From Gemmatimonadota bacterium (lineage in GTDB: Bacteria > Gemmatimonadota > Gemmatimonadetes > Gemmatimonadales > GWC2-71-9): DNA of 43,901 nucleotides. Below, piece after piece: positions 2,485-18,332 of the stretch (its first letter is position 1; each line of letters begins with the position of its first letter). The position numbers were made by a program, and so were the translations under genes. The notes beneath the pieces are model-generated. The model made no database searches. It was not told where the DNA came from and was given only the letters and a program-made list of their open reading frames with translations. Where the stretch lies: contig JANYAG010000048.1 in the NCBI GenBank assembly GCA_025361465.1, positions 1-43,901 on the forward strand, written 5' to 3'.

Positions 2485-2623
2485 GGTGCTCTCCTTCCTT
2501 TTCGTGACGTTCACACGAGTTGGTGCACCCAGCGCAATGGCCGGTGCATCCCCGGTGAGGGAACATGCCGTGGAGGACAAACAACGCCGCACACAACCCG
2601 ATGGCGATGACGGTTTGGCTCAC
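2474..2623 (-). CDS. 49-aa single-TM Cys-rich peptide (CX3CX2CX3C), putative Rnf maturation factor
   Basis: GTG start overlaps rnfA stop (GTGA) and its stop overlaps the apbE start; VSQTVIAIGLCAALFVLHGMFPHRGCTGHCAGCTNSCERHEKEGEHHVG. Confidence 0.6.
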   Translation of the reverse strand: MSQTVIAIGLCAALFVLHGMFPHRGCTGHCAGCTNSCERHEKEGEHHVG

Positions 2624-3198
2624 TGCGCGCTCCCCATGCCGGCGAAGCCCATGAACGCCATGGACAGGCACGACGCCACGACCAGCACCAGTCCCATGCG
2701 GCGCGCAATGACCGGCACGTCGGCCACTTCGATCCGTTCGCGGATCGAGGCCATCAGGGAGAGTGCCAGGGTCAGTCCGAGCCCGGCGCCGATGGCGAAC
2801 ACCAGCGATTCGATCAGGTTGTACCGGCGCGAGGTCTGGAACAGGGCCAGGCCGAGAATGGCGCAGTTGGTCGTGATCAGCGGGAGATAGATCCCCAGCT
2901 GCCGGAAGAGCACCGGGAAATGCTTCTTGACCGCCATCTCCACGATCTGCACGCCCGAGGCGACCACCACGATGAAGGCGATGGTGCGCAGGAACGGCGT
3001 CTGCATCAGCACGTAGGTGTTGAGCACCCAGGCGCCAACGGCGGTGAGCAGCAGCACGAAGGTATTCGCGAGGCCGAGGCGCCAGGCCGTCTCGATCTTC
3101 GCGGTGACGCCGAAGAAGGAGCACAGCCCCAGGAACATCACCAGGGTGAAGTTGTTGACCAGCAGGGTCGAGACGAAGATCCACGCCAGGTTGCTCAT
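2620..3198 (-). CDS. rnfA: Electron transport complex subunit RnfA
   Basis: LLVNNFTLVMFLGLCSFFGV and LPLITTNCAILGLAL conserved RnfA/NqrE motifs. Confidence 0.95.
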   Translation of the reverse strand: MSNLAWIFVSTLLVNNFTLVMFLGLCSFFGVTAKIETAWRLGLANTFVLLLTAVGAWVLNTYVLMQTPFLRTIAFIVVVASGVQIVEMAVKKHFPVLFRQLGIYLPLITTNCAILGLALFQTSRRYNLIESLVFAIGAGLGLTLALSLMASIRERIEVADVPVIARRMGLVLVVASCLSMAFMGFAGMGSAQ

Positions 3199-3875
3199 GC
3201 GGCCCTCTCGGCGCGACGACGGCGGAACTCGATGATCCCCGCCAGGCCGAGGAGCGCGATTCCGAGGGTCAGGAAGCCGCCCGGAGGCATCACCATGAAG
3301 ACCCATGGCTCGAAGCGCGGCCCGAGAAGGTCGTAGCCCAGCAACGAACCGTTGCCGAGCAGTTCGCGGATGGCACTCAACAGGGACAGCGAGAAGGTGA
3401 AGCCCAATCCCATCCCGACCCCGTCGGCAACGGCGCGCACCGGCCCGACCTTGGCGGCAAACGCCTCCGCCCGGCCGAGCAGGAGGCAGTTGGCCACGAT
3501 CAGGGGCATGAACGGCCCCAGCGCCTTGCTGATGTCGGGGAAGGTGGCGGCGAGGATCATGTCGGCCAGCGTCACGAAGGTGGCGATGACCAGGATGTAG
3601 GTGGTGATCCGCACTTCATGGGCGATGTACTTGGCCACCAGCGAGACGATCAACCCGGAACCGACCAGCACGAAGAGCGTCGCCATGCCCATCGCGATGC
3701 CGTTGGCGAGCGTATTGGTGACCGCCATGGTGGGACACATCCCGAGAAACTGCACCATCACCGGATTTTCGCGCAGGATGCCGCGCCAGATATCGGCGAC
3801 GACCGTCGCGGGCGGCGGCGTCCCGGGAACGAACTCCGGCGTGCTGGTGGATTGGTCGGTTGTGATGGCGGTCAC
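3195..3875 (-). CDS. rnfE: Electron transport complex subunit RnfE (GTG start)
   Basis: NPVMVQFLGMCPTMAVTNTLANGIAMG and MPLIVANCLLLGRAEAFA motifs of RnfE/NqrD. Confidence 0.95.
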   Translation of the reverse strand: MTAITTDQSTSTPEFVPGTPPPATVVADIWRGILRENPVMVQFLGMCPTMAVTNTLANGIAMGMATLFVLVGSGLIVSLVAKYIAHEVRITTYILVIATFVTLADMILAATFPDISKALGPFMPLIVANCLLLGRAEAFAAKVGPVRAVADGVGMGLGFTFSLSLLSAIRELLGNGSLLGYDLLGPRFEPWVFMVMPPGGFLTLGIALLGLAGIIEFRRRRAERAA

Positions 3876-4543
3876 TTGGCCCCTCCCCGGTCCCACGCGT
3901 CGAGCAGCGGGCGCCACTTGGCCACCGCATTGTTGATGATCCGGATCACGGCCCGCGAGGAGATGGTCGCCCCGGTGATGGTCTGGACCTCGCTGGGCGG
4001 CTTCCCTGCGCGGCCCTTGACCCCTTGGAGCGGCACGACGCGTCCGGTGAACTGGGCACCAAACAGGGAGTCCTTCTCGATCTTGTCGCCGAGCCCCGGC
4101 GTCTCCTTTTGGTCGAGCACCTTGTATCCGATCAACGCCCCGCTCGAGGGGTCGAACCCGATCATCAGCGTCAGCAGTTCCTGGAATCCCGGTTCGCTGG
4201 CCGTGATCGCGACACCCACCCGCTTGGCGGAGGCATCGAACCCGACGAACGCCTTGGGAAGGTCGATCGGATCTGCGCCGGACGGGACGGTGCGGGTGAG
4301 CGCGCCGTTCACGAGGTAGAGCGTGTCCCAGCGCGCGGGCGCCTTGAGCACCTCGCTCACGGCGGCGCGTTGCTGCTCGGCCGCGTGCTTCTGCACCGCG
4401 GGCAGGGTCACCTTGTAGACCGATACGACCAGCCAGCCCGACAGGGCGCCGGCAACGGCCAGGGTCAGCAGCAGGCGCCACGCCGGCGTGCTCTTGCCGG
4501 GCGTGAGCACGGCGGGAGTGCCGTGTTGATGCGTCGCGGTCAT
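3872..4543 (-). CDS. rnfG: Electron transport complex subunit RnfG (FMN-binding)
   Basis: One N-terminal TM; FMN_bind domain; flavinylation motif VQTITGATISSRAV. Confidence 0.93.
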   Translation of the reverse strand: MTATHQHGTPAVLTPGKSTPAWRLLLTLAVAGALSGWLVVSVYKVTLPAVQKHAAEQQRAAVSEVLKAPARWDTLYLVNGALTRTVPSGADPIDLPKAFVGFDASAKRVGVAITASEPGFQELLTLMIGFDPSSGALIGYKVLDQKETPGLGDKIEKDSLFGAQFTGRVVPLQGVKGRAGKPPSEVQTITGATISSRAVIRIINNAVAKWRPLLDAWDRGGAK

Positions 4544-4547
4544 GCCA

Positions 4548-5951
4548 TCACCTCTGGACCACCACCGGATGGGGTTGCGGTGCCATGAGAGTCACCGGAG
4601 TCGGCTCCACTGCGCCGCGCGGCCTGACGCCTGGGTGGAAGCCAAGCGTCAACATCAGGGCCGCGAAGCCGATGATGTAGGCCGCGGTGACAAACCACCC
4701 TTCCTTGAGCCACCTGGCCGCATTGCGCCCTTCGGGATACATGCTGACGAGTGCCACGCCGGCCGATGAGCCGAACCAGATCATCGAGCCGCCAAACCCG
4801 ACGGTGTAGGCCAGAACGCCCCAGTCATAGCCGCCTTGCTTGAGCGCCAGCGCCGTCAGCGGAATGTTGTCGAACACCGCCGAGACGAAGCCGAGCCCGA
4901 ACGCCGATTGCCAGCCCGCGGCCGGCAGGCGCTCGACCGGCATCATCGAGGCGCACAGCACCAGCGAGAGGAGGAAGGCCGCGCCCTTGAGCGCGGCGGG
5001 CATCAGGCTCCATTCCGGCTTGCGCAGCACGGTGGTCCCCAGGATGGCGACCCACACCGCGGCGCCCAGGAAGGGGAAGCGGTCCGACGATTCGGTGAAG
5101 CGGGTGTTGATCACCACATTGACGATGATCGCCGCCACCAGGATGGAAAGCACCACCGCGACCCGCACCCAGTCCACCCGCGCGTTGGCCGCATCGGCGC
5201 GGTGGATCGGGGAGTAGCTGTGCTGCTTCAGGGCGGCCGGAATGCCGCAGACGAACATCGCGATGAACGAACCGCCGTAGCCGTGGAGCACTTGCAGCGG
5301 GGGCACGCCGGCGATCCACATCATCGTGGTGGTGGTGTCGCCGACGACGCTGCCGGCGCCGCCGGCATTCGAGGCCGCCACGATCGCCGCCAGGTAGCCG
5401 ATATGGATCTTGCCGCGGAAGACGGTGTGCGCCACCGCACCACCGATCAGCGCCGCGGCGATGTTGTCGAGGAAGCTGGAAAGGATGCAGATCATCCACA
5501 GCAGTGCGAAGCCGCCGAGCCAGCCGTCGGGCAGGTACTTGGGCAGCGCGGCCGGCACCTCGCTGTTCTCGAAATGCCTGGCCAGCAGGGCGAAGCCGAC
5601 CAGCAGCAGCAGCAGGTTGGTCAGGATCACCCACTCACTCTGGAGATGCAGCCCGAAGCCCGTGAGGCCGGCACCGGTCCGGAATGGCGACGCGACGATC
5701 TTGTAGATCGCGATGCCGACCGCACCGATGATGGCGACCTTCATGGTCTGGTTGTGCAGGATCGCCACGCCCGCCAGCACCAGGCCGAACAGGATGAACT
5801 CGATCGGCACCGGGCCGAGCTGCGGACCCGAGAACCCGATCTCCGAGGCCGCGGCGAAGGCCCGGCCAGGCGATGCGAGGAGCAACAAGGCCGCGATACC
5901 GAGTGGGCGCATGGTCACCTTGCGAAACATCGAGGTTGAACTCGCACTCAC
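4548..5951 (-). CDS. NhaD-like Na+/H+ antiporter of the ion transporter superfamily
   Basis: Polytopic; LSSFLDNIAAALIGG, GDTTTTMMWIAGVPP and VFDNIPLTALAL signatures; GTG start overlaps rnfD stop. Confidence 0.8.
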   Translation of the reverse strand: MSASSTSMFRKVTMRPLGIAALLLLASPGRAFAAASEIGFSGPQLGPVPIEFILFGLVLAGVAILHNQTMKVAIIGAVGIAIYKIVASPFRTGAGLTGFGLHLQSEWVILTNLLLLLVGFALLARHFENSEVPAALPKYLPDGWLGGFALLWMICILSSFLDNIAAALIGGAVAHTVFRGKIHIGYLAAIVAASNAGGAGSVVGDTTTTMMWIAGVPPLQVLHGYGGSFIAMFVCGIPAALKQHSYSPIHRADAANARVDWVRVAVVLSILVAAIIVNVVINTRFTESSDRFPFLGAAVWVAILGTTVLRKPEWSLMPAALKGAAFLLSLVLCASMMPVERLPAAGWQSAFGLGFVSAVFDNIPLTALALKQGGYDWGVLAYTVGFGGSMIWFGSSAGVALVSMYPEGRNAARWLKEGWFVTAAYIIGFAALMLTLGFHPGVRPRGAVEPTPVTLMAPQPHPVVVQR

Positions 5952-6952
5952 CGTGAGCTCCCCGGGTGGGTGCCGAAGACGCGCGGTTGGGTCGCCCGGT
6001 TGATGAAGGGCACCAGGGCATTCATGAACAGGATGGCGTACATCACGCCCTCGGGCAGCCCGCCCCAGATGCGAATCACCACCACCAGCGCACCGATCCC
6101 GCCCCCGAACACCCAGCGACCACGATTGGTGACCGGTGAGGTCACCATGTCAGTGGCCATATACACCGCGCCAAGCATCAGTCCGCCGGAAAAGAGCATG
6201 AACAGGGCGTCAGGCCGGCGCGGATCCACGAGGTGGATCACGGTACTGAGCACCGCCACCATCACCAGGATGCTGACCGGGATGCGCCAATTGAGGTACC
6301 GCTTCCACGCCAGGAAGGCACCGCAGGCGAGGATCAGCAAGGCCGCCGTCTCCCCCACCGATCCTCCGGTATTGCCGATGATCAGGTGCATCAGCCCGGT
6401 GGTCTTCCCCTCGAACTTCAGGAGACCGAGCGGGGTCGCCGAGGTGACGGCATCGAGCGACGGACGGGTGAACGGAAAGGCGAAGAGATCGCCCTTGAGT
6501 TGCAAGAACGGGCCACCAACCGTTGGCCAGGTGGTGATGGCGACCGGAAAGGCGGCCTGCAGGAAGGCCCGTCCGATCAGCGCGGGATTGAAGACATTCT
6601 GGCCCAGGCCACCCCAGACGACCTTCCCGAAACCGATCCCGAACGCGCCGCCAAGAAACGCCATCCAGAGCGGCATGCCCGAGGGCAGCGACAGGCCGAG
6701 GAGCAGGCCGGTGATGACCGCCGAGCCATCGGCCAGGGTACCCCCGCGGCCAATCGTGCGCTCCGTCAGCAACGCGCCGAGCGACGAGGCGGCGATCACC
6801 AGCAGGGCGCCAATGCCGAAGAACCACCCGGCGGCCACGATGATCGGGACCAGCGAGCCGACCACGTTCCACATGATCACCGGCGTGGAGTCCTGCGAGC
6901 GAACATGCGGTGAGGCGGTGACAACCAGCTTGGGCGTAATCGATTGGCTCAT
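5948..6952 (-). CDS. rnfD: Electron transport complex subunit RnfD
   Basis: SPHVRSQDSTPVIMWNVVGSLVP; GGLGQNVFNPALIGRAFL; DAVTSATPLG covalent FMN-type motif. Confidence 0.95.
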   Translation of the reverse strand: MSQSITPKLVVTASPHVRSQDSTPVIMWNVVGSLVPIIVAAGWFFGIGALLVIAASSLGALLTERTIGRGGTLADGSAVITGLLLGLSLPSGMPLWMAFLGGAFGIGFGKVVWGGLGQNVFNPALIGRAFLQAAFPVAITTWPTVGGPFLQLKGDLFAFPFTRPSLDAVTSATPLGLLKFEGKTTGLMHLIIGNTGGSVGETAALLILACGAFLAWKRYLNWRIPVSILVMVAVLSTVIHLVDPRRPDALFMLFSGGLMLGAVYMATDMVTSPVTNRGRWVFGGGIGALVVVIRIWGGLPEGVMYAILFMNALVPFINRATQPRVFGTHPGSSR

Positions 6953-8277
6953 GTGGCACCAGCCTTGACGCGCCGCAGCGCGGCCTTGCTCGCCTGGAAG
7001 AGCTGGGCAAGCGGAATGTTCGACGGGCAGACATAGGCGCACGAACCGCAGAGCATGCAATCGGCCAGGTGCTCGTCAACCATGTCCTTGAAGCGGTGCA
7101 CCCGGGCGAAGTCACCCAGGAGCGACGGATTGAGGAACACCGGACAGGCCTCGAGGCAACGCCCACAGTGGATGCAGGGATAGACCTTGTCGAGCCGGGT
7201 CTCGTGTTTCTCGAGCACCACCACTCCGGTGGTGCCCTTGACGACCGGCGCGTCCAGATTGGCCTGCGCCTGCCCCATCATCGGGCCGCCGATGATCACC
7301 TCGGCCGCATCGGGGGTCACGCCATCACAGAAGGCCAGCAGGTCGCGGAGCTTGGTGCCGACCGGGACGATCAGGTTGGCGGGACGGCGAAGGCCGTGCC
7401 CCGAGACGGTGACGATCCGCTCGATCAGCGGCAACCCGGTCTCGAACACCTCGGCGATGGCCGCCACCGAGCCGACGTTCTGCACCACCACCCCGACGCT
7501 CACCGGCAACTTGCCCGAGGGAACTTCGATCCCGGTCACTGCCTGGATCAGCATCTTCTCAGCACCCTGCGGGTACTTCACCGTCAGCGGCAGGATGGTG
7601 ATGTCGAGATCGGTCGGCAACGCCTGTTGCAGCGCCGCGATCGCGTCAGGCTTGTTCCGTTCGACGCCCACGACGCACTTGGGGACCCCCATGGATTGCA
7701 TCATGACCCGGATCCCGAACAGCACCCGGTCGGGGTACTCTGCCATGGTGCGATGGTCCGACGTCAGGTAGGGCTCGCACTCGGCCCCGTTGATGATCAG
7801 CGTGTGCACCACGAAGTCCGCCGGTGGAGCCAGCTTCACATGGGTCGGGAACGCCGCGCCCCCCAGCCCGACGACGCCGGCGTCCTGCACCGCCTGCACC
7901 ACCTGGTCGACCGTGAGTCCCTCCCAGTGCGGCACCATCCGCGGCCGGGTCATCTGGGGCGCGTAGCGGTCCACCTTGATCCGCACCGCCATCGCCATCG
8001 TCCCGTCGGGATGCGGCCACCAGCCGATGTCCGTCACCGTGCCGGACGCCGAGGCGTGGATCGGGACCGAGATCCAGCCATCGGCCAGACCGACCGGATC
8101 GCCGCGTTCGACATGGTCCCCCACCTTGACGCACAGCGTGGCCGGGTTGCCGGCGTGCTGCCGCAGCGGCAGGACAATCTCGTCGGGATACGGCATCCGT
8201 CGGATCGGGAGTTGACTGGTCAACTCCTTCTCTTCACGAGGATGCACACCGTGACGGAACCCTGAGGAGAGTCTCAT
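6949..8277 (-). CDS. rnfC: Electron transport complex subunit RnfC
   Basis: GLGGAAFPTHVK, NGAECEPYLTSDHR, two 4Fe-4S motifs CIHCGRCLEACP and CMLCGSCAYVCP. Confidence 0.95.
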   Translation of the reverse strand: MRLSSGFRHGVHPREEKELTSQLPIRRMPYPDEIVLPLRQHAGNPATLCVKVGDHVERGDPVGLADGWISVPIHASASGTVTDIGWWPHPDGTMAMAVRIKVDRYAPQMTRPRMVPHWEGLTVDQVVQAVQDAGVVGLGGAAFPTHVKLAPPADFVVHTLIINGAECEPYLTSDHRTMAEYPDRVLFGIRVMMQSMGVPKCVVGVERNKPDAIAALQQALPTDLDITILPLTVKYPQGAEKMLIQAVTGIEVPSGKLPVSVGVVVQNVGSVAAIAEVFETGLPLIERIVTVSGHGLRRPANLIVPVGTKLRDLLAFCDGVTPDAAEVIIGGPMMGQAQANLDAPVVKGTTGVVVLEKHETRLDKVYPCIHCGRCLEACPVFLNPSLLGDFARVHRFKDMVDEHLADCMLCGSCAYVCPSNIPLAQLFQASKAALRRVKAGAT

Positions 8278-8284
8278 CCGATGA

Positions 8285-11200
8285 TCAATTGAACTTCGCC
8301 GCGCGTGCGATCCACTTCTCGAGGTCCTTCTCCTTGGAATTCAGCGGGGTGCCGGGATGGATGATCGCCACCGGGCAGCGCTCCGCGGCCGTGACCAACT
8401 GGGCGAACGTGCCAGCCTTGGGGTCCTTGATGACCGCCTGCTTGGTGGCGTTGTACACGAACATCTTCTTGTTGGCGTTGATGCATTCGTTGCACGTGGT
8501 GCAGCGCGCCGAATCGATCCACGGCGCAATGACCATGGCGTCGTCGTCTTCGGCCGTGGGCGCCGCGGCCACTGCGGCGACCGGGGCCTTGGCCGGCGCT
8601 GCCGAGGCCGGGACGTTCGTCACTGGTGCGGCGACCGGGGCGGCCCCGGCGGGCCGCGGCCGTGTCAACGCCGGCAACTCGGCCAGGAACTCCGCCACCG
8701 CCGCCGAGCCGCCAGCCTTGGTGAGCAGCGCCGACGCCAGCCGGCGCGCCATCTGCGCCGGATAGGTCGCGCGGAGGTCGGCCAGTTTCGCTTCATAGTC
8801 GGCCCGCAGCGAGGCCGTCCGGGTTTCGAATTCCGCCTCGACCGAGCTCGCCACCTGGTCGCGAACGCTCGGGGCGATCTCCAACCCGGCGAGTTGGCGC
8901 AGCTGTGACCAGAATTGCTGCCGCTCTTCCGCCAGGTGCACGATCTCGCTCGACACGCTGAGCCGGCGCAGCGTGCGATCCTTCGCGAGCGCCAGGATGT
9001 AGGGGGCATGACCATCGCGCTCCGCGGGGGCAAGCGCGAGATACTCGTGGAACGGCATCATCGCGTCGTCCCACGTGGTCGACGGCACCTCGGCGAAGTG
9101 TTGCTTGAAGCGGCCCTCGGTGGCGGCCCAATCGGCGATGGTCACCGGCAGTTCGAGGGTTTGCTCCGCCCCCGCGCCGTCGAGGTACTTCAACGTGTAG
9201 GTGGGCCAGGCGTCCTCGACCGAGGGATTGCCCTCGAGCGACAACTGGTCGGCATAGGTCGGCCCGGCCTCGGGGTCGAACGTGAGGAACGGGAACGCCC
9301 GGCTTTCCAGCGCCAGGCGAGCCGAGTGCTGCGACGAGTCGTCGGCCAGCCCGTGCTCGACCGGGCAGGGTGTGTACACATTGATCAGCACCGGGCGGCG
9401 CTTGTGCAGGCCCCTCAGCACGCCGCCAATCAGGTGCGACGCCGAGGCTTGCGACGTCTGGTGGACATAGACGCCGCGATGCGCGATGGCGATCAACGCC
9501 AGTTCCTTGCGGACTTCGGTCTTGCCATGCTGCGCCTTGCCGAAGCCGGACATGTCGGCCACCTGTCCCGTGAAGCCCGAGGTGCAGGCCTGGCCACCAG
9601 TGTTGGAGTACACCTGCGTGTCGAGCACCACGACGCGGATCGGCTTGCCGCTCGCCAGCAGGCGCGAGAGGTTCTGGAAGCCGATGTCGAGCATCGCGCC
9701 GTCGCCGCCCATCGCGACGATCGGCGGGCAGAGGGCGAATTCGTCGTCGGTGAACTGCTGCCAGGTGAGCAGCGCCAGGGCCGGTTCATGGAGCGCCGCG
9801 TCGTAGCCGCCGTCGGTCAGCAGTTCGGCGCGACGGATGAGGGCGAAGTTGTCCGCCATCTTGCGCATGTGGGCCTCGAACAGCCCGATCGCGACCGACG
9901 TCGAATCCTGGAAGAGATGGCTCACCCACGGGAACGGATACGGATTGTAGGGATAGGTGCCGCCCCAGACCGAAGAGCAGCCGGTGCTGTTGGCCATCCC
10001 CATCGGGGCACGCCCGGTGCCGCTCGGCCCCGCTTCGTAGCGCCACTTGAGGTCCTTCAGCGCGGCGATGGTGCGGTTGAGCAGCATCAGCTGCTCCTGC
10101 TTGGCCGCATCGATCGGCACGGCCACCGAGCCACCGCCCTGGGCGGCCGCATCGAGGTCGGCGCCCGAGGCGATCAGCTCACGCGCTTCCCGGTCAAGGG
10201 CAGCGAGCAGTTCGTCGAGATGGGCGACGTACCGCTCGATGCGCGGCTGCATCGACGCGAAGATCGAGGAGACGATCAGGTGGACCGCGGTCTTCTCGCC
10301 ACAGCCCATGCAGGCGCCGTCGCCGCCAACCATGGAACGGTAGGTGGCCTTCTTGAGCAGCAGCGAGGACAGCACGCCGATGCCCTCGTCCACATCGCTC
10401 ACGTTGACGAAGCGATTGTCGGTGTCGGGCAGCCGCTGCCAGATGGCCCAATTGCGGCGCAGCTGCTCGAGCGAGGCGTCATCCTGCCGGACCGACACGA
10501 GCGCGCCGTCGGGACAGACCTCGACGCAGAGATTGCACCCCTTGCAGGCCTCGGGATTGACCGTGATCGAGAGCAGGCCGCCGGAGCCCTTCTCCTTCCC
10601 TTCGATCGCGTCAAAGAACGGCCGGGTCCGCGCCACCGGGAACTCGGCCAGCCGCGGCTGCACCACCGCGAACTCCTGGTCGGTCGCCGCGCGACGATCG
10701 GCGTCCCACTTCAGCTTGTCCGCGACGGTCGCATAGCCCTTGGCGAACGCCTCGGTCACCGCCAGCGACGGCTCCTTGGCCAGGAGACGCTGGACTTCCT
10801 TGCCCCAGGGCTTGGCGACCGGCCGCAGGCGATCGACCGTGTGACTGGTGGCCGCCGCTCCGATCGCCGCAGTGATGACCTCCTCGGGGCTGTTGACCAG
10901 CCCGGGGATGGCGGCATCGGGACACTGGGTCCAGCACTGCGCACAGCCGGTGCAGTTGGCGGCCACGAACGCCGGGATCTCCATCCGCACGCCGCTCATG
11001 TCGCGCACCGCGCCGGTGGCGGCCGGGATCGCGCTGATCGCCGCAAACGGATCGGCGATGCCGTCCTGCCCCATCACGCAGAGCGAACACACCTGCTCCC
11101 AGAACCGGCCCGGATTGCCGATGCCCTGCTGGGCGTCGATCACGTCGAGCGAGCCGGGAATGTGCGGGACGGTGCCGAGCGCCATGCTCGCCTCGACCGC

Positions 11201-13321
11201 CGTGGCATCCACCACCAGCACCTGGTCAAACCCGCGGCGAATGACGCGGAGGTTGTCTTCCACCACCGCCTCGCCGCGATGGCCGAACTTCTTCTTGAAC
11301 TGGGCACGGATGCCCTCGAACAGGCGGGCTTCGGTCGTCTCCTCGCGCTGCAGCAGCGGCGAGGTGTTGAAGAAGGCCCCGAGGAACGCCGCACCCTGCA
11401 TCCGGTAGCGCAACTCGACGTCGGACGCTTCTTCCCGCGCGATGGCGAAGGCGTCGAGCACATAGACCCGGATCTTCCGCTCGCGGATGGTCGCGCGCGC
11501 CTGGGCCGGAAGGGTGAGCCAGAACTCGGCCGGGCTCAGGTCGCTCTGGATCACGAAGACGCCACCCGCGGCGAGGCCGGCGAGCGGATCGCTGTGCCGG
11601 AAGACATTCGGGTCGGGCGAGAGGACGACATCGACGTGCCGGAGTTCGCAGTTGAGGCGCACCGGCTCGTGCGACAGCACGGCATAGAACGTCGTCGGCT
11701 GACCCTTCTTTTCCGAGCCGTACTTGGGATTGGCCTTGATCTGCATCCCGAAGAGCTCGAACGCCGTCATCGCGAGGTTCTTGCCCATCGTGATGGCGCC
11801 CCAGCCACCGACGGAGTGGATCCGCACCGCGGTCGAGCCTTCGGGCAGGAGGTTCAGGTCGCCGGCCGACGTGAGCGACAGCTCCCCGATCTCGGGATAG
11901 CTGTCGAGCATCCGTTCCTGCCAGATCTGCAACTTCGGGAGCTTGGTCTCGCGGCGGATGAAGTCGATGCCCAGGTAGAACTGGCGCTTCTGGGCGCCCT
12001 TGGGCAGCATGTTGTCGACGGCCGCGACGATATCGCCGGGCTGCAGGTCGCGGCTGCCGAGGCCGAAACAGCCGGAATGGAAGTTGGGCACCTGGCCTGC
12101 GCCGAGCGCGGCGAGCCCCGGGAATGCGACGGCGCCGCCGGTCGCGACGCGGCCGTTCTCGACCGCCTGCGAGATGGCCGAGCGGATTTCGCGCAGCAGC
12201 GGGGGATCAACAGCCAGCGGCTGGTCGGTACGCTCGAGGACGACGACAGCCTTCTTGCCGGCGAGGGCATGACTGATCAGGTCGGCCGGGAACGGCCGGA
12301 ACATCGTCAGGTTGAGGACACCAATTGCCAGGCCACGCGTGGCGCGCAGGTGATCGACCACCGCCTCGGCATTGGCGACGACCGAGCCCTGTCCGACGAT
12401 CACGTATTCCGCATCGTCGAGACGGTAGCCGGAGACCCGGGCGTACCGGCGACCGGTGAGGGCGGCGAACTCGGCGAACGCCTGGTCGGTCAGGCTGGTG
12501 ATGTGATCGAAATAGAAGGGCCGCTGGGCGGCGACACCTTGGGCGTAGCTGTCCTGGTTCTGCACCACGCCGAGCATCGCCGGGTAATCGAAGTCGAACA
12601 TCTCCGGAATCCGGCGGCGCATCTCCCCGAACACCAGGCGCTGTGACGGCGTCGGCGAGGGGATCATGTCGGCGGGATCGCCGAGATACGTCTTGATGAG
12701 TTCGCGCTCCGGGAGGAGGAGCGACTCGATCACATGGGAGGTGAGGAAGCCGTCCTGGGCGCAGATGCCCGGGTTGAGCGACAGCTCGGCGATCCGGTGG
12801 GCGACCAGGTTGAGGTCGGCCGCTTCCTGGACATCCTTGGCGAACAGCTGGAAGAAGCCGGTGTCGTCGACCGCGTGATAGTCATCGTGACCGGCGTGGA
12901 CATTGAGGGCGTGCTTGGTCATCGCGCGGGCGGCGATGTTGAGCACATACGTCAGCCGCTTGCCGACGGCCGCGTAGAGCGACTCGTGCATGTAGGCGAT
13001 GCCCTGCCCGCTCGAGAAGTTGGTCGCGCGCAGGCCGGACATCGCCATCCCGGCGGTGACCGCGGCGGCGGCATGCTCGCCTTCGGGTTCGAAGAAGAGG
13101 AGGCGCCGGCCGTTGACGTTCAGCTTCCCTTCGGCGACCGCCTGGGCCCACCCTTCACCCATCTGGGTGGAGGGAGTGATCGGATAGGCGCCGGCCGCCT
13201 CGCCGGCGGCAATCTCCATGGCCACGACCGCGGCGCTGCCGTCGAGCGCCTCCAGCGTGCCGGGATAGCGCGGCGTTTCGGGCGCCTTGGAACTGCGCGG
13301 ACTGCGAAGAATCGACGTCAT
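8285..13321 (-). CDS. nifJ: Giant pyruvate:ferredoxin (flavodoxin) oxidoreductase-like protein with fused C-terminal 4Fe-4S ferredoxin domain
   Basis: About 1678 aa from ATG at 13321 (ATGA overlap with rnfB stop); AYPITPSTQMGE; CTGCAQCWTQCP; CKGCNLCVEVCP; GACMGCGE; NSTGCSSVWGGTYPYNPYP; GGDGAMLDIGFQNLSR; YTPCPVEHG; C-terminal ARCTTCNECINANKKMF...ERCPVAII. Confidence 0.9.
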   Translation of the reverse strand: MTSILRSPRSSKAPETPRYPGTLEALDGSAAVVAMEIAAGEAAGAYPITPSTQMGEGWAQAVAEGKLNVNGRRLLFFEPEGEHAAAAVTAGMAMSGLRATNFSSGQGIAYMHESLYAAVGKRLTYVLNIAARAMTKHALNVHAGHDDYHAVDDTGFFQLFAKDVQEAADLNLVAHRIAELSLNPGICAQDGFLTSHVIESLLLPERELIKTYLGDPADMIPSPTPSQRLVFGEMRRRIPEMFDFDYPAMLGVVQNQDSYAQGVAAQRPFYFDHITSLTDQAFAEFAALTGRRYARVSGYRLDDAEYVIVGQGSVVANAEAVVDHLRATRGLAIGVLNLTMFRPFPADLISHALAGKKAVVVLERTDQPLAVDPPLLREIRSAISQAVENGRVATGGAVAFPGLAALGAGQVPNFHSGCFGLGSRDLQPGDIVAAVDNMLPKGAQKRQFYLGIDFIRRETKLPKLQIWQERMLDSYPEIGELSLTSAGDLNLLPEGSTAVRIHSVGGWGAITMGKNLAMTAFELFGMQIKANPKYGSEKKGQPTTFYAVLSHEPVRLNCELRHVDVVLSPDPNVFRHSDPLAGLAAGGVFVIQSDLSPAEFWLTLPAQARATIRERKIRVYVLDAFAIAREEASDVELRYRMQGAAFLGAFFNTSPLLQREETTEARLFEGIRAQFKKKFGHRGEAVVEDNLRVIRRGFDQVLVVDATAVEASMALGTVPHIPGSLDVIDAQQGIGNPGRFWEQVCSLCVMGQDGIADPFAAISAIPAATGAVRDMSGVRMEIPAFVAANCTGCAQCWTQCPDAAIPGLVNSPEEVITAAIGAAATSHTVDRLRPVAKPWGKEVQRLLAKEPSLAVTEAFAKGYATVADKLKWDADRRAATDQEFAVVQPRLAEFPVARTRPFFDAIEGKEKGSGGLLSITVNPEACKGCNLCVEVCPDGALVSVRQDDASLEQLRRNWAIWQRLPDTDNRFVNVSDVDEGIGVLSSLLLKKATYRSMVGGDGACMGCGEKTAVHLIVSSIFASMQPRIERYVAHLDELLAALDREARELIASGADLDAAAQGGGSVAVPIDAAKQEQLMLLNRTIAALKDLKWRYEAGPSGTGRAPMGMANSTGCSSVWGGTYPYNPYPFPWVSHLFQDSTSVAIGLFEAHMRKMADNFALIRRAELLTDGGYDAALHEPALALLTWQQFTDDEFALCPPIVAMGGDGAMLDIGFQNLSRLLASGKPIRVVVLDTQVYSNTGGQACTSGFTGQVADMSGFGKAQHGKTEVRKELALIAIAHRGVYVHQTSQASASHLIGGVLRGLHKRRPVLINVYTPCPVEHGLADDSSQHSARLALESRAFPFLTFDPEAGPTYADQLSLEGNPSVEDAWPTYTLKYLDGAGAEQTLELPVTIADWAATEGRFKQHFAEVPSTTWDDAMMPFHEYLALAPAERDGHAPYILALAKDRTLRRLSVSSEIVHLAEERQQFWSQLRQLAGLEIAPSVRDQVASSVEAEFETRTASLRADYEAKLADLRATYPAQMARRLASALLTKAGGSAAVAEFLAELPALTRPRPAGAAPVAAPVTNVPASAAPAKAPVAAVAAAPTAEDDDAMVIAPWIDSARCTTCNECINANKKMFVYNATKQAVIKDPKAGTFAQLVTAAERCPVAIIHPGTPLNSKEKDLEKWIARAAKFN

Positions 13322-14157
13322 GCTTCCGTGCTCCCAGCCAAAGACGGCATGCGGACGAATTGCGCTCCGTCCAGCCATACGATCGCGCCGGTCGGACAGC
13401 GGGTCACTGCCTGCCGATCGGCCTGTGCGTTGAGTTCATAGTTCACTGTCGCCACACCACTGCTGACACTGATCAGTCCCGGCGCGGCATCCTGCACGCA
13501 CTTGCCGCAGGTCGTGCACGCCACCTGACACTGGTCCAGCACCTCGTCGCCGGCGAGGAGGTTCTTGCACTGCACCAGGAGCCGTTGTTCCACGGGCTGG
13601 AGCACGAACAGTCCCTTCGGGCAGGCCTCGACGCAGTCACCACACGCAGTGCAGGTGACCGGGTCGACCACCGGGAGCCCGGTGTCGCTCATCGTGATCG
13701 CCTTGAAGGCGCACACCCGAGCGCAATCGGCGAGGGAGAGGCAGCCCCAGGCGCAGCCCTTCCCGCCTCCGGCCACGGCCGCGGCCGCGGCACACGTGGG
13801 GAGCCCGCGGTATTCGGCCTGCGACACCGCGACGTCGGTTCCGCCGGCACAGAGCAGTCGCGCGACGCGCCGCTGTGCGGTCCCCGCCGCGACGCCGAGG
13901 AAACCGGCAATCGCCTTGTGCACATCATCGCTGCCCACCGAACACTTCGTCGGCGCGATGATCCCCTCAACCGCCTGCTCGGCAAACGCCCGGCAGCCCG
14001 GCAGCCCGCACGCGCCACAGTTGGCGTTGGGCAGCATCGAGGCGACCGCGTCGATCCGGGGATCTTCCCAGACCCACAGCTTCCGGTTGGCCAGCGCGAT
14101 GAAGACCGCGAAGACCAGCCCCACTCCACCAACAATCAGGATCGCGAGCAGTGTCAT
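13318..14157 (-). CDS. rnfB: Electron transport complex subunit RnfB (multi-cluster ferredoxin-type)
   Basis: N-terminal TM; LPNANCGACGLPGC...KC; CAWGCLSLADCARVCAF; CTACGDCVEACP; CTTCGKCVQDAAPGLI...RCPTGAIVW. Confidence 0.93.
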   Translation of the reverse strand: MTLLAILIVGGVGLVFAVFIALANRKLWVWEDPRIDAVASMLPNANCGACGLPGCRAFAEQAVEGIIAPTKCSVGSDDVHKAIAGFLGVAAGTAQRRVARLLCAGGTDVAVSQAEYRGLPTCAAAAAVAGGGKGCAWGCLSLADCARVCAFKAITMSDTGLPVVDPVTCTACGDCVEACPKGLFVLQPVEQRLLVQCKNLLAGDEVLDQCQVACTTCGKCVQDAAPGLISVSSGVATVNYELNAQADRQAVTRCPTGAIVWLDGAQFVRMPSLAGSTEA

Positions 14158-14179
14158 CGTGACGATTTCCGCATCGGTA

Positions 14180-15181
14180 TCAGCTCTCCCCCAGCCCGGA
14201 TGCACCAAGCAGCCACGCCGCGATCTTCTCCACCGCATCGTCGCCGCTGCCTGCGCGCGGAGCCGATCCGGCACTCGCCGGCGCGGCGATCGGTGCGCGA
14301 GCCAGATCTTCCAGCATGGTTCGGTCTTCCGCCATCTGCCAGGCGCTCATGCCACTGATGGCACGCTTGGGCACCTCGCCCAGCGTCCCCACCGTCAACC
14401 GCTGCCACGGCTCGCGCCCGGCGGCCGGGTCGTGGCAGAAGACCGCGGCGCCGGCCGGCATCACCGCCCCGATCGCCGGCCCGTCAGACAGGGCGACCCG
14501 ATCGAGTCCGCTGCCGTCGATGGTCTGCAACACCAGCGTACCGGGGGTGATGCAGCGCGCGAGTGGCGCCGGCGCCGACGCGCCCCGCACCACCAGCACG
14601 ATCTTCTCGCGACCGTCGGCAAAATCACTCAGGGCCCCGACGTGCAGGTCGGCCCCGTCGAGCGAGACGATCAGGGGCGGGGCGTACCGCCGCTCGGTCT
14701 TGCCCCAGGCACGGAAGTCCAGCGGATCGAGCAACCGATCATGCTCGCTGGCCTGGTAGCGTCCCCCGCGCACCACATCGGTCAGGATCACCGCACCAAA
14801 TGCCCGCCCGAATTCCGCCAGCGCGTCGTTGACCGTGGCACCCAGTCGGCCGCCCGTGGGGAGAGCGATCAGGAAGGCATCCGTGCCGCGCTCGGCGATC
14901 GCGCGCAGCGTGGCGCTGGCACGAGTGAGCGCGGCCACCGCCGCGGGGGACACCGGCGGCACCGCGGGGAAGAGCGTGGCGAACCGCGCCGCGTCCACCC
15001 GGCCGGCTGCAAATTGTCCCAGTGCAATCCCGGCGCGACCGGCCTGCTGACTGCTGTCGGCGGCCTGCTCCGCGAGGAACGCTTCGGCGAGGGCGAGGGC
15101 GCGTTGAATGATCGCGCGAAATTCGGCGATCGGCCGCTCCATGGCCGCCGTGGCCAGGGCAAAGCGCGCGTCAGACGGCAT
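14180..15181 (-). CDS. conserved hypothetical protein encoded between korB and rnfB
   Basis: 333-aa uninterrupted ORF overlapping korB by 11 nt and 22 nt before rnfB; no family recognised. Confidence 0.75.
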   Translation of the reverse strand: MPSDARFALATAAMERPIAEFRAIIQRALALAEAFLAEQAADSSQQAGRAGIALGQFAAGRVDAARFATLFPAVPPVSPAAVAALTRASATLRAIAERGTDAFLIALPTGGRLGATVNDALAEFGRAFGAVILTDVVRGGRYQASEHDRLLDPLDFRAWGKTERRYAPPLIVSLDGADLHVGALSDFADGREKIVLVVRGASAPAPLARCITPGTLVLQTIDGSGLDRVALSDGPAIGAVMPAGAAVFCHDPAAGREPWQRLTVGTLGEVPKRAISGMSAWQMAEDRTMLEDLARAPIAAPASAGSAPRAGSGDDAVEKIAAWLLGASGLGES

Positions 15182-16127
15182 AGCGATCCAGCTCCGCTTC
15201 CATCAGGGTGATCCGCTCGTCGGCGGTGCGCGGCGCCACGCGCAGGAGGTCTTCGTAGCGCGGCCGCGACGGATCGCGGAACAGCACACCGAGGTGGATG
15301 TGGTCGGTGCTCTCGGCGATTCGGCGCGCCGCGTCGAGATCATGCGGATCGTGCGCGACCTGGGTCTTGTAGATCTTCTCGAGATCAGGCACCACCACGC
15401 CGTCGTCGTGGGTCAGCAACGCAATGCGGGCGGGGTCCTGCACCGCCGCCTGGTAGACGGCCGCGGAGTACACCGGACACCGCTGCAGGATGCGCACGAA
15501 GCTCAGGCCGCGATGGTGATAGGCCTCTCGCAGCGTGGCATAGAGGTGCGCCGGGGCCCACTCGGCGGTCTGGGCCACGAACGAGGCGTTGGTCACGCCC
15601 AGCGACACCGTGAGCGGATTGAGCGACGGAAGCCGACTCCCGTTCGGTTGCGTGTTGCTGGGAAATCCCTGCGGGGTGGTCGGTGAGGTCTGCTTCTTCG
15701 TCAGCGCGTAGATGCCGTTGTCGAGGAGGAGGACCGTCATGTTGATGTTGTAGCGCAGGGCGTGGATCCAGTGCGCCGCACCGATCGACGTGCAGTCGCC
15801 ATCGCCCATGACAACAAAGACCGTGAGGTCGGGACGGCTCAGCTTGACGCCGGTCGCCACCGGCAGCGCGCGGCCATGGATGCCGTGGAAGCCGTAGGTC
15901 TTGAGATAATGCGGAAACCGGCTTGAGCAGCCGATGCCCGAGACGAACACCGTCTGTTCCGGGGTGAGCTGCTCGGCGGTCAGCAGCCGCTGCACCGCGG
16001 TCAGGACCGAATGATCGCCGCAACCGGGGCACCAGCGCGCGCGCGCGCCCTCGTAGTCACTCAGCTCGTACTCGGCATCGTGCTCGTCCGGCTGCAGGAC
16101 CGGCAGGAGCCCGCAGGCGATTGTCAT
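15171..16127 (-). CDS. korB: 2-oxoacid:ferredoxin oxidoreductase beta subunit
   Basis: ARWCPGCGDHSVL; FVSGIGCSSRFPHYL; VVMGDGDCTSIGAAHWIHALRYNINMTVLLLDNGIYALTKKQTSPTT (TPP-binding). Confidence 0.93.
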   Translation of the reverse strand: MTIACGLLPVLQPDEHDAEYELSDYEGARARWCPGCGDHSVLTAVQRLLTAEQLTPEQTVFVSGIGCSSRFPHYLKTYGFHGIHGRALPVATGVKLSRPDLTVFVVMGDGDCTSIGAAHWIHALRYNINMTVLLLDNGIYALTKKQTSPTTPQGFPSNTQPNGSRLPSLNPLTVSLGVTNASFVAQTAEWAPAHLYATLREAYHHRGLSFVRILQRCPVYSAAVYQAAVQDPARIALLTHDDGVVVPDLEKIYKTQVAHDPHDLDAARRIAESTDHIHLGVLFRDPSRPRYEDLLRVAPRTADERITLMEAELDRYAV

Positions 16128-18016
16128 GCTGCACCTCCCCGCGGCATCCGCTCGCGAATGGCATCCACAATGGATCCGGGACGCAACGGCTCGCCCGGGA
16201 CCCGGGTCCAGCAATCGACGTCCACGAGCGTGGTCGCGCGCAACAGCCAGCTCAGCTGCCCGCGGCGACGGTTCTCCTCCGTGATGAACGGGTCACCCAG
16301 TTCATCGCTGTAGTTGATCTCCACCGTGCAGACCTTCTTGAACTTCGCGAAGATCGCCTTCAGGCCCGGCTCAAGGGGCGAGAGGAAGCGCAGGTGCACC
16401 GATGAAACCCGCATCCCCTCGCGCTTCGCCCGATCCACCGCTTCCTCGATCGCGCCCTTGGTGCTCCCCCAGCCGACCAGCAGCAGGTCGCCCTGGTCGT
16501 CCCCGTACACCGGCGGTGGCGTCAGCATGTTCTGCAGCACGGCCAGCTTGCGGCTGCGCATCGCCGAGCTGTGCTGATGCACGCCCGAGCTGTAGGCCAC
16601 CTTGCTGCGGTTGTCGTGTGAGAGACCGGTGACGGTGTAGGCCCCGCCCGGCTGCCCAGGAATGATCCGCGGGGAAAGCCCGGTCTCCTCGTTCCAGTCG
16701 TAGGCGTGCTGTCCGGCGGCGACCGGCGGCAGGTCGAGCGGAGCCGCCTGCCAGCGGGCATCCAGCTTCGGCCGGGGAAACGGCGTCACACCGGTGGCGA
16801 GGTTGGCGTCGCTGAGCACCATCACCACGGTGCGGAATGCCTCGGCGATCCGGCGCGCGGTGATCATGACATGGAAGCACTCTTCGATCGTGGCAGGCGC
16901 CAGGACCACGTGCGGGGAGTCGCCGGGACTGGCGTACATCGCCGCGAGCAGGTCCGACTGCTCCACCTTGGTCGGCAGCCCCGTGCTGGGACCGCCGCGC
17001 TGCACATCGATGAGCACCAGCGGCATCTCGGTCATCACGGCCAGGCCGAGGAACTCCGTCTTGAGCGCAAGCCCCGGCCCCGACGTCACGGTGAGCGCCA
17101 CCTTGCCGGCGTAGGATGCGCCGATCGCCACGCCCACGGCGGCGATCTCATCCTCCGCCTGGTGCACCACGCCGCCGAAGCGTTCGAACACTTCGCTCAG
17201 GTAGTGCGACACCGAGGTCGCCGGGGTGATCGGATACATCGCGCAGAGCTCCATCCCGGCGGCGACCGCCCCGAGACCCAGCGCCTCGTTGCCGTTCATC
17301 ACGATCAGTGGCTCGGTGACCGGTGCTGGCGGCACCTCGATGCGGAAGTCGATGTGCGCTTCAGCCCAGGCGTAACCGAGCATGAGCAGGGCGACGTTCT
17401 GTTCGTAGACCTGTTCACTCTTCTTGCGGAAGGTCTCGGCGATCTGCTCCTTGATGCGCGCCATGTCGCTGGTGTAAATGCACGCCAGCATTCCGAGCGC
17501 GAACATGTTCTTCCCCTTGCGGGGATTGTCGACGAGGGTGAGGCACTCCACCTCCATCGGCACCGGGATGATGCGGTAGTGCTGGCCCGAGAGCTCGGCC
17601 ATCCCGGCTTCCCAGGCGGCGCGAATGTCCGCGTCCTCGTCGCTGGCCCACTTGTCCTCGACCAGCAGCACGGCGTCAGGCGCCAATGCCTCCAACCGAT
17701 GCCGGGCCAGCAAGACCTGCTCGTTGAAGGCGACGACGAGGTTGGTCGAATCGCCCCAATTGGTCACCGGTCGTTCGCCGATGCGAATCCGGAAGCCGCT
17801 GGCGCCTTCGGGAATCCGCGGCGGCGGCTGGATCTCGGCCGGAATGATCTCAACGGTCCAGACGCCGTTACCCATCTTGGCGCAGACCGCGCCGAAGATC
17901 TGGCCGCACTTCTGGGCGCCTTCCCCGGAGTCGGAGACGATCTCGAGGGTGTGCTCGGGCAGTCGCCGGACGCGCGGCTTGGTCGGGACAATGGTGGCGG
18001 ACGTGGTGGCAGTCAC
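16124..18016 (-). CDS. korA: 2-oxoacid:ferredoxin oxidoreductase alpha subunit with N-terminal gamma domain fused (GTG start)
   Basis: N-terminal POR gamma domain then NEALGLGAVAAGMELCAMYPITPATSVSHYL; QRGGPSTGLPTKVEQSDL. Confidence 0.92.
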   Translation of the reverse strand: MTATTSATIVPTKPRVRRLPEHTLEIVSDSGEGAQKCGQIFGAVCAKMGNGVWTVEIIPAEIQPPPRIPEGASGFRIRIGERPVTNWGDSTNLVVAFNEQVLLARHRLEALAPDAVLLVEDKWASDEDADIRAAWEAGMAELSGQHYRIIPVPMEVECLTLVDNPRKGKNMFALGMLACIYTSDMARIKEQIAETFRKKSEQVYEQNVALLMLGYAWAEAHIDFRIEVPPAPVTEPLIVMNGNEALGLGAVAAGMELCAMYPITPATSVSHYLSEVFERFGGVVHQAEDEIAAVGVAIGASYAGKVALTVTSGPGLALKTEFLGLAVMTEMPLVLIDVQRGGPSTGLPTKVEQSDLLAAMYASPGDSPHVVLAPATIEECFHVMITARRIAEAFRTVVMVLSDANLATGVTPFPRPKLDARWQAAPLDLPPVAAGQHAYDWNEETGLSPRIIPGQPGGAYTVTGLSHDNRSKVAYSSGVHQHSSAMRSRKLAVLQNMLTPPPVYGDDQGDLLLVGWGSTKGAIEEAVDRAKREGMRVSSVHLRFLSPLEPGLKAIFAKFKKVCTVEINYSDELGDPFITEENRRRGQLSWLLRATTLVDVDCWTRVPGEPLRPGSIVDAIRERMPRGGAA

Positions 18017-18029
18017 GGGGTGAGCATCC

Positions 18030-18332
18030 TCACTCGAGGAGGCGCGAGCTGGATGGCTCGGCCAGGCTCTTCGGGGGTTCGACAACGGGAACGATGGAGG
18101 GCACAGGCTGTTCGGTCGCCTGCATCTCGCGCAGATGCGCCAGTTCACTCAGGAGGTCCTCGTAGACCGCCGGATCAAGCAGCACCGCAGCACTGCGACC
18201 ATGCTGAGTGAGGATCACCGTGCACTTGGTGCTGCGGATCTGTTCGAGGAAAGCTGAGGCGTTCGCCCGGAATTCAGTGACCGGGCGGACATCCTGCGCG
18301 GGGCGGAGGCGGGACATGTTACGGTGCGTCAT
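18030..18332 (-). CDS. Phd/YefM-family antitoxin-like protein, no toxin gene adjacent
   Basis: 100 aa; VRPVTEFRANASAFLEQIRSTKCTVILTQHGRSAAVLLDPAVYEDLLSELAHL is Phd/YefM-like; stop 13 nt before korA start. Confidence 0.85.
   Translation of the reverse strand: MTHRNMSRLRPAQDVRPVTEFRANASAFLEQIRSTKCTVILTQHGRSAAVLLDPAVYEDLLSELAHLREMQATEQPVPSIVPVVEPPKSLAEPSSSRLLE

Follow-up and report, generated by a model that had tools for sequence, protein, structure and literature searches.

A PFOR-type 2-oxoacid oxidoreductase with a tethered C-terminal ferredoxin, a probable partner of the co-encoded Rnf complex

The window analysed here is the whole 43,901-nucleotide stretch of contig JANYAG010000048.1, which belongs to a Gemmatimonadota MAG (GCA_025361465.1; 2.76 Mb, 87% complete) and carries an operon on its minus strand, to which all coordinates given below refer. 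The operon begins with the alpha subunit of a 2-oxoacid oxidoreductase, KorA (16124–18148), which scores 537.7 bits against TIGR03710 with its cut-off of 482.75, followed by the beta subunit KorB (15171–16214), recognized by profile search and from relatives, a protein of 333 residues with no assigned function that is conserved in relatives (14180–15181), and RnfB (13318–14274), identified by its FeS domain and Fer4 motifs. Directly downstream of rnfB lies the gene of a PFOR-type 2-oxoacid:ferredoxin oxidoreductase with a C-terminal ferredoxin (8285–13321), and the series continues with RnfC (6949–8277; with RnfC_N, Complex1_51K and SLBB domains, and encoded right behind the ferredoxin in relatives), RnfD (5948–7060), an NhaD-like sodium/proton antiporter (4548–5951; its 59 bits fall short of the cut-off for the NhaD equivalog), RnfG (3872–4543; assigned from its position and from relatives), RnfE (3195–3875), RnfA (2620–3198), and an ApbE-like FAD:protein FMN transferase (1492–2592), with RnfD, RnfE, RnfA and the ApbE-like protein being identified by profile search. 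All six rnfABCDGE genes are found in the window, where gene order and relatives agree on the assignment, even though the TIGR subfamily cut-offs are missed narrowly by RnfA and RnfE and also missed by RnfB.

Several neighbours of the PFOR-ferredoxin gene deserve a separate comment. The NhaD-like antiporter, inserted here between RnfD and RnfG, was not found in the best 80 of 538 related loci, and its presence inside the rnf operon may point to sodium coupling. The genome paper of A. vinosum leaves the role of its three rnf clusters open and records a sodium/proton exchanger gene in one of them (PMC3368242). The 333-residue protein occupies the same place, after KorB and before RnfB, in operons of Gemmatimonadota and Planctomycetota; it matches no Pfam or NCBIfam family, its structural model matches TPP-enzyme folds only weakly (E>0.1), and the idea that it is a remnant of a PFOR was abandoned because a profile search detected no similarity to PFOR. 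The end of RnfB (CTTCGKC...CPTGA) resembles, by eye, a single-cluster ferredoxin, and may be a docking or exchange partner of the tethered ferredoxin. The original prediction had also remarked that the operon holds no separate ferredoxin gene, which is true of the operon only, because a free 7Fe-type ferredoxin frame is present elsewhere in the genome (G000:C337).

The reading frame of the PFOR-type protein is open from 13378 and spans 8285–13378, or 1,697 residues counted from the first ATG, the likelier start being the ATG at 13321 (MTSILRS...), which gives 1,678 residues, the length originally estimated and about 450 residues beyond that of a classical one-chain PFOR. Along this chain, Pfam places POR_N, PFOR_II, POR, two Fer4 motifs, TPP_C and a C-terminal Fer4_13, with POR_N, PFOR_II, POR and TPP_C each exceeding the Pfam cut-off within a single chain, as in a one-chain PFOR, and the best solved relatives are the PFOR structures 6CIN and 1B0P/1KEK. 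The NCBIfam equivalog TIGR02176 is matched with 401 bits against a cut-off of 911, so that the protein falls on a divergent branch and is no canonical NifJ. Both CxxCxxCxxxCP motifs of the body (Cys 790–800 and 926–936; 10514–10954 with the stretch between them), recognized by Pfam and alignment, align to those of 1B0P/6CIN, and Cys 1004, 1007, 1115 and 1319, which from 1KEK we take to correspond to the ligands of the proximal cluster, show no variation across an alignment of eight sequences, an outgroup of 36% identity among them; the body therefore holds the predicted cysteine ligands for three [4Fe-4S] clusters. The motifs around the substrate arginine are conserved, and pyruvate is the presumed substrate, another small 2-oxoacid being possible. 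Past the TPP domain, the chain extends into a mixed alpha/beta domain and then a long helix (8678–9352), modelled mostly with pLDDT above 80, for which neither a sequence-profile nor a Foldseek structure search against the PDB returned a solved homologue. No flavodoxin or FAD/NAD-binding domain is detected by Pfam in the chain, which thus lacks the C-terminal flavoprotein reductase of a pyruvate:NADP+ oxidoreductase, and no second member of this PFOR family was found in the 87% complete genome. One relative (G009) had been reported with an in-frame TGA, which was set aside because the frame reads open through the gene for 1,699 residues.

The extension is joined to the ferredoxin by a disordered, low-complexity linker of about 45 residues (approximately residues 1549–1595; 8537–8677), which in an AlphaFold2 model of the C-terminal 355 residues, built with 49 relatives, has pLDDT values of 43–69 that drop below 50. 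The linker is Pro/Ala-rich in the window, as originally described, and of low complexity in all relatives, but the composition itself is no general trait: the mean share of Pro plus Ala is 46% at GC contents above 65% and 18% at GC contents below 50%, and the linkers of Chromatiaceae feature Gly/Asn. Pro/Ala richness was accordingly rejected as a conserved feature, since it follows high GC while the letters vary among relatives.

Beyond the linker, residues 1596–1678 or thereabouts (8288–8536) form a ferredoxin domain with a conserved tail, delineated from Pfam, the model and relatives, with Cys 1607, 1610, 1613 and 1649 as the ligand cysteines. The isolated C-terminal piece scores 30.7 bits against Fer4_13, above the cut-off of 24.5, in the search against ferredoxin families that had been proposed as a check, and Fer4_13 is matched by all 50 aligned relatives (E<=0.01). 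The domain is modelled with pLDDT 94–97, and among PDB entries Foldseek ranks Desulfovibrio africanus ferredoxin I first (1FXR; rmsd 0.8 Å and TM 0.85, the latter on the target), a protein that a sequence-profile search also finds (E=5e-10) and that serves the crystallised D. africanus PFOR as its ferredoxin partner. The four-cysteine pattern CxxCxxC...C is present in 74 of 74 readable C-termini among the best 80 of the 538 related loci. Among Gemmatimonadota members, identity to the window is 69% in the ferredoxin and 34% in the linker, and the tail after the ferredoxin is of the type GTPLNxKEKDLxKWxxRAxxFN. These observations uphold the original reading of a ferredoxin fused to the PFOR C-terminus, whose quoted landmarks (YTPCPVEHG, the linker, and ARCTTCNEC...ERCPVAIIHPG) are all in place, and they confirm a single-cluster ferredoxin of the Fer4_13 or ferredoxin I type that is predicted to bind its cluster. 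Two details of that reading required correction: the domain stands nearest to Desulfovibrio ferredoxin I, with the Bacillus-type ferredoxin 1IQZ ranking below 1FXR at TM 0.55, and of the proposed CxxCxxC...CP pattern only the four cysteines are general, the trailing Pro being found in nearly all Gemmatimonadota members read, whereas elsewhere the residue after the fourth cysteine is usually Thr or Ala.

The fusion extends well beyond the source lineage. A scan of genome contigs with a query that included the ferredoxin yielded 538 related stretches, and the best 80 of these span at least seven phyla, namely Gemmatimonadota, Planctomycetota, Acidobacteriota, Myxococcota, Pseudomonadota, Bacteroidota and Hydrogenedentota, together with single MAGs labelled otherwise. 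The carriers include Gemmatirosa, Pseudomonadota such as Thiocapsa, Allochromatium, Marichromatium, Sedimenticola, Rhodocyclaceae and Thiobacillus, and, in the Bacteroidota, Algoriphagus, Flagellimonas, Cecembia and Persicobacter. Among the same best 80 loci, rnfC is the next gene on the same strand at all 62 that have at least 1.2 kb of downstream sequence, and all six rnf genes are present at 39 of the 40 with long flanks. The exception (L141, 14919 onward, in a Myxococcales chromosome record) encodes the PFOR-ferredoxin protein with RnfC alone and no further rnf gene within 10 kb. The position of rnfB varies, as in those long-flank Bacteroidota loci where it was found it comes after rnfA and not before the PFOR gene.

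Since these 80 loci had been ranked by a query containing the ferredoxin, an independent co-occurrence test was run, in which the 83-residue ferredoxin and RnfC served as separate queries against 394 genomes of the class. The two queries were positive in 86 and 84 genomes, respectively, and in 83 genomes jointly, so that the ferredoxin is present in 83 of the 84 genomes with RnfC; the remaining one (G241) has only an RnfC fragment at a contig edge, and the three genomes with the ferredoxin and without RnfC are G010, where it is a free frame of 96 residues, G096 and G403. Ferredoxin and RnfC share a contig in 81 of the 83 genomes, and in 80 of these they are 5–193 bp apart. At one locus (L173, G306), rnfC does not adjoin the PFOR-ferredoxin gene but lies 7.6 kb away. 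Fisher's exact test gives p = 1e-80 for this co-occurrence, a value that exaggerates the evidence, given the relatedness of the genomes, and the counts are likewise not independent because a tree of 44 PFOR bodies resolves the distribution of the ferredoxin into two label changes, a single gain that accounts for the fused family and a single loss. The latter concerns G112, a complete, single-contig genome whose PFOR nests inside the fused family: its frame of 1,549 residues (L034, 8114–12760) is 69% identical in the body and stops before the ferredoxin, the linker and ferredoxin having been lost. No rnf genes lie near this PFOR, and RnfC was found nowhere in the G112 genome with the query that was positive in 84 others. 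The outgroup proteins of G146, G116 and G125 (36% identical) have neither ferredoxin nor RnfC, with no rnf genes beside these three loci, and none was seen in the flanks read, some of them short, of 11 unfused PFOR loci of the same order.

Two of the genomes in which the ferredoxin occurs without RnfC place it on a related protein. In G096 (L152, 591–2840), a protein of 750 residues, 25% identical to the C-terminal part of the PFOR and ending in the same ferredoxin (54%), follows KorA and KorB and adjoins a flavoprotein that resembles GltD/NfnB by eye, and G403 (L151, 6002–6532) carries a truncated copy of such a protein; the RnfC search of both genomes was negative. The tethered ferredoxin is therefore not strictly an Rnf part, because in G096 it is attached to a KorAB-linked protein in the absence of RnfC, and the two cases imply that partners other than Rnf are open to the module, in favour of the more general idea of a tethered carrier for 2-oxoacid oxidoreductases. 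The overall distribution nevertheless argues for Rnf as its usual partner.

In the textbook view, PFOR and Rnf are linked through a soluble ferredoxin common to the whole cell, and RnfB is the usual entry point of ferredoxin electrons into Rnf. We consider it probable that the PFOR-type enzyme described here, to which a ferredoxin is attached by a flexible arm, is a dedicated partner of the Rnf complex encoded with it. Electrons would run from the active site along the three [4Fe-4S] clusters in the PFOR body, the tethered ferredoxin would dock at the distal cluster to pick them up, and the same domain would carry them to the iron-sulphur domains of RnfB, from where Rnf would pass them on to NAD+ while pumping ions. 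Flow in the opposite sense, from NADH to ferredoxin to pyruvate synthesis, would also be possible, and on balance we lean towards the oxidative direction. Docking at RnfB and channelling along the arm are what we infer from the fusion, the fold, the conserved ligands, the flexible linker and the strict rnf association. Ferredoxin gives electrons to RnfB, the cluster domain of which is itself flexibly tethered, according to a review (PMC12174285), and engineered hydrogenase-ferredoxin fusions with flexible linkers raised PFOR-fed electron flow 4–5 fold, with an optimum of linker length (PMC2847965). Comparative genomics gives good support to the originally proposed tethered shuttle, through the rnfC context at 62 of 62 loci, the 83 genomes shared between sets of 86 and 84, the joint absence in G112 and the lack of rnf beside unfused PFORs; the free ferredoxin of the genome and the ferredoxin without RnfC in G096 and G403 count on the other side. 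The original emphasis on Pro/Ala does not extend to the relatives in general.

The same machinery could also be built for the opposite purpose, with Rnf spending the ion gradient so that NADH reduces the ferredoxin arm, and with the enzyme acting as a pyruvate synthase and KorAB as a 2-oxoglutarate synthase in carbon assimilation. This would agree with the presence of KorAB within the operon of the window, with the inclusion of purple sulphur bacteria and Sedimenticola among the carriers (Thiocapsa, Allochromatium, Sedimenticola), and with the known ability of Rnf to operate in reverse (PMC12174285). The direction is, however, not fixed by the PFOR sequence, and we regard this reading as unlikely. 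The fusion is also found in Bacteroidota (Algoriphagus, Flagellimonas) and in Gemmatirosa, which are not known as autotrophs. We are similarly doubtful that the domain acts as an additional relay or electron buffer of a general kind, supplying whatever acceptor is at hand, the free ferredoxin pool among them, and that its linkage to rnf reflects a shared pathway instead of direct transfer: the free 7Fe-type ferredoxin of the genome and the KorAB-linked, flavoprotein-adjoining protein of G096 speak for such a role, but the domain has gone from the family PFOR where RnfC is absent (G112) and is kept in nearly every genome with RnfC, and the adjacency to rnfC is preserved across phyla.

Two further explanations appear highly improbable. 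A structural or vestigial domain that binds no cluster has nothing found in its favour, and it is contradicted by the invariable presence of the four ligand cysteines at the loci read, by the better conservation of the ferredoxin than of the linker, and by the confidently modelled fold. Production of an additional free ferredoxin from an internal start codon could be imagined from the in-frame ATG just ahead of the domain in the window (8536–8534), but such an ATG is present in only 30 of 73 relatives, and a start with a Shine-Dalgarno sequence occurs there in 18% of cases versus 21% elsewhere in the gene, so that this candidate was rejected for want of any excess over background.

If the PFOR-type enzyme is indeed a dedicated partner of Rnf, a fusion that is conserved in at least seven phyla and lies nearly always within an rnf operon would constitute a private electron wiring from a central carbon enzyme to an ion pump. 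We would go further only tentatively, in suggesting as a possibility that PFOR in many phyla is in effect an extra Rnf module, whose swinging ferredoxin arm bypasses the free ferredoxin pool; with electrons channelled by such an arm, a low-potential pathway might be able to operate in cells exposed to oxygen. Channelling to Rnf becomes testable in cultured carriers, namely Gemmatirosa, Flagellimonas, Algoriphagus, Thiocapsa and Allochromatium, and the fusion offers a natural model for engineered ferredoxin fusions. PFOR and ferredoxin are known families, and their fusion and its linkage to rnf are apparently undescribed, in that we found no paper on either, an absence that is weak evidence as most subscription papers were outside reach.

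The relation of the PFOR-ferredoxin protein to known systems can be summarized as follows. With the classical one-chain PFOR/NifJ (D. africanus, 1B0P/1KEK; Moorella thermoacetica, 6CIN), it shares the domain order, the two CxxCxxCxxxCP motifs, the TPP domain and the conserved YPITPS and TARA/AARA motifs, and its greater length is accounted for by an insertion between the cluster motifs, the post-TPP extension, the linker and the ferredoxin. D. africanus ferredoxin I (1FXR/1DAX) has the same fold and four-cysteine single-cluster pattern, but is a free small protein, whereas the domain in the window is fused and bears an added C-terminal tail. Pyruvate:NADP+ oxidoreductase of Euglena and Cryptosporidium, a PFOR with a C-terminally fused P450-reductase-like flavoprotein that yields NADPH, likewise has its electron partner fused at the PFOR C-terminus, the partner in the window being instead a ferredoxin tied to rnf. 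The Rnf complex of the review (PMC12174285) and that of the window both comprise the full rnfABCDGE set with ApbE, the window differing in the PFOR-ferredoxin gene between rnfB and rnfC, a subunit that does not figure in the passages of that review that were searched. Finally, the engineered hydrogenase-ferredoxin fusions (PMC2847965) likewise use a flexible linker to lift the local ferredoxin concentration and to insulate electron flow, but they are artificial and tether the ferredoxin to the acceptor, whereas in the window it is tethered to the PFOR.
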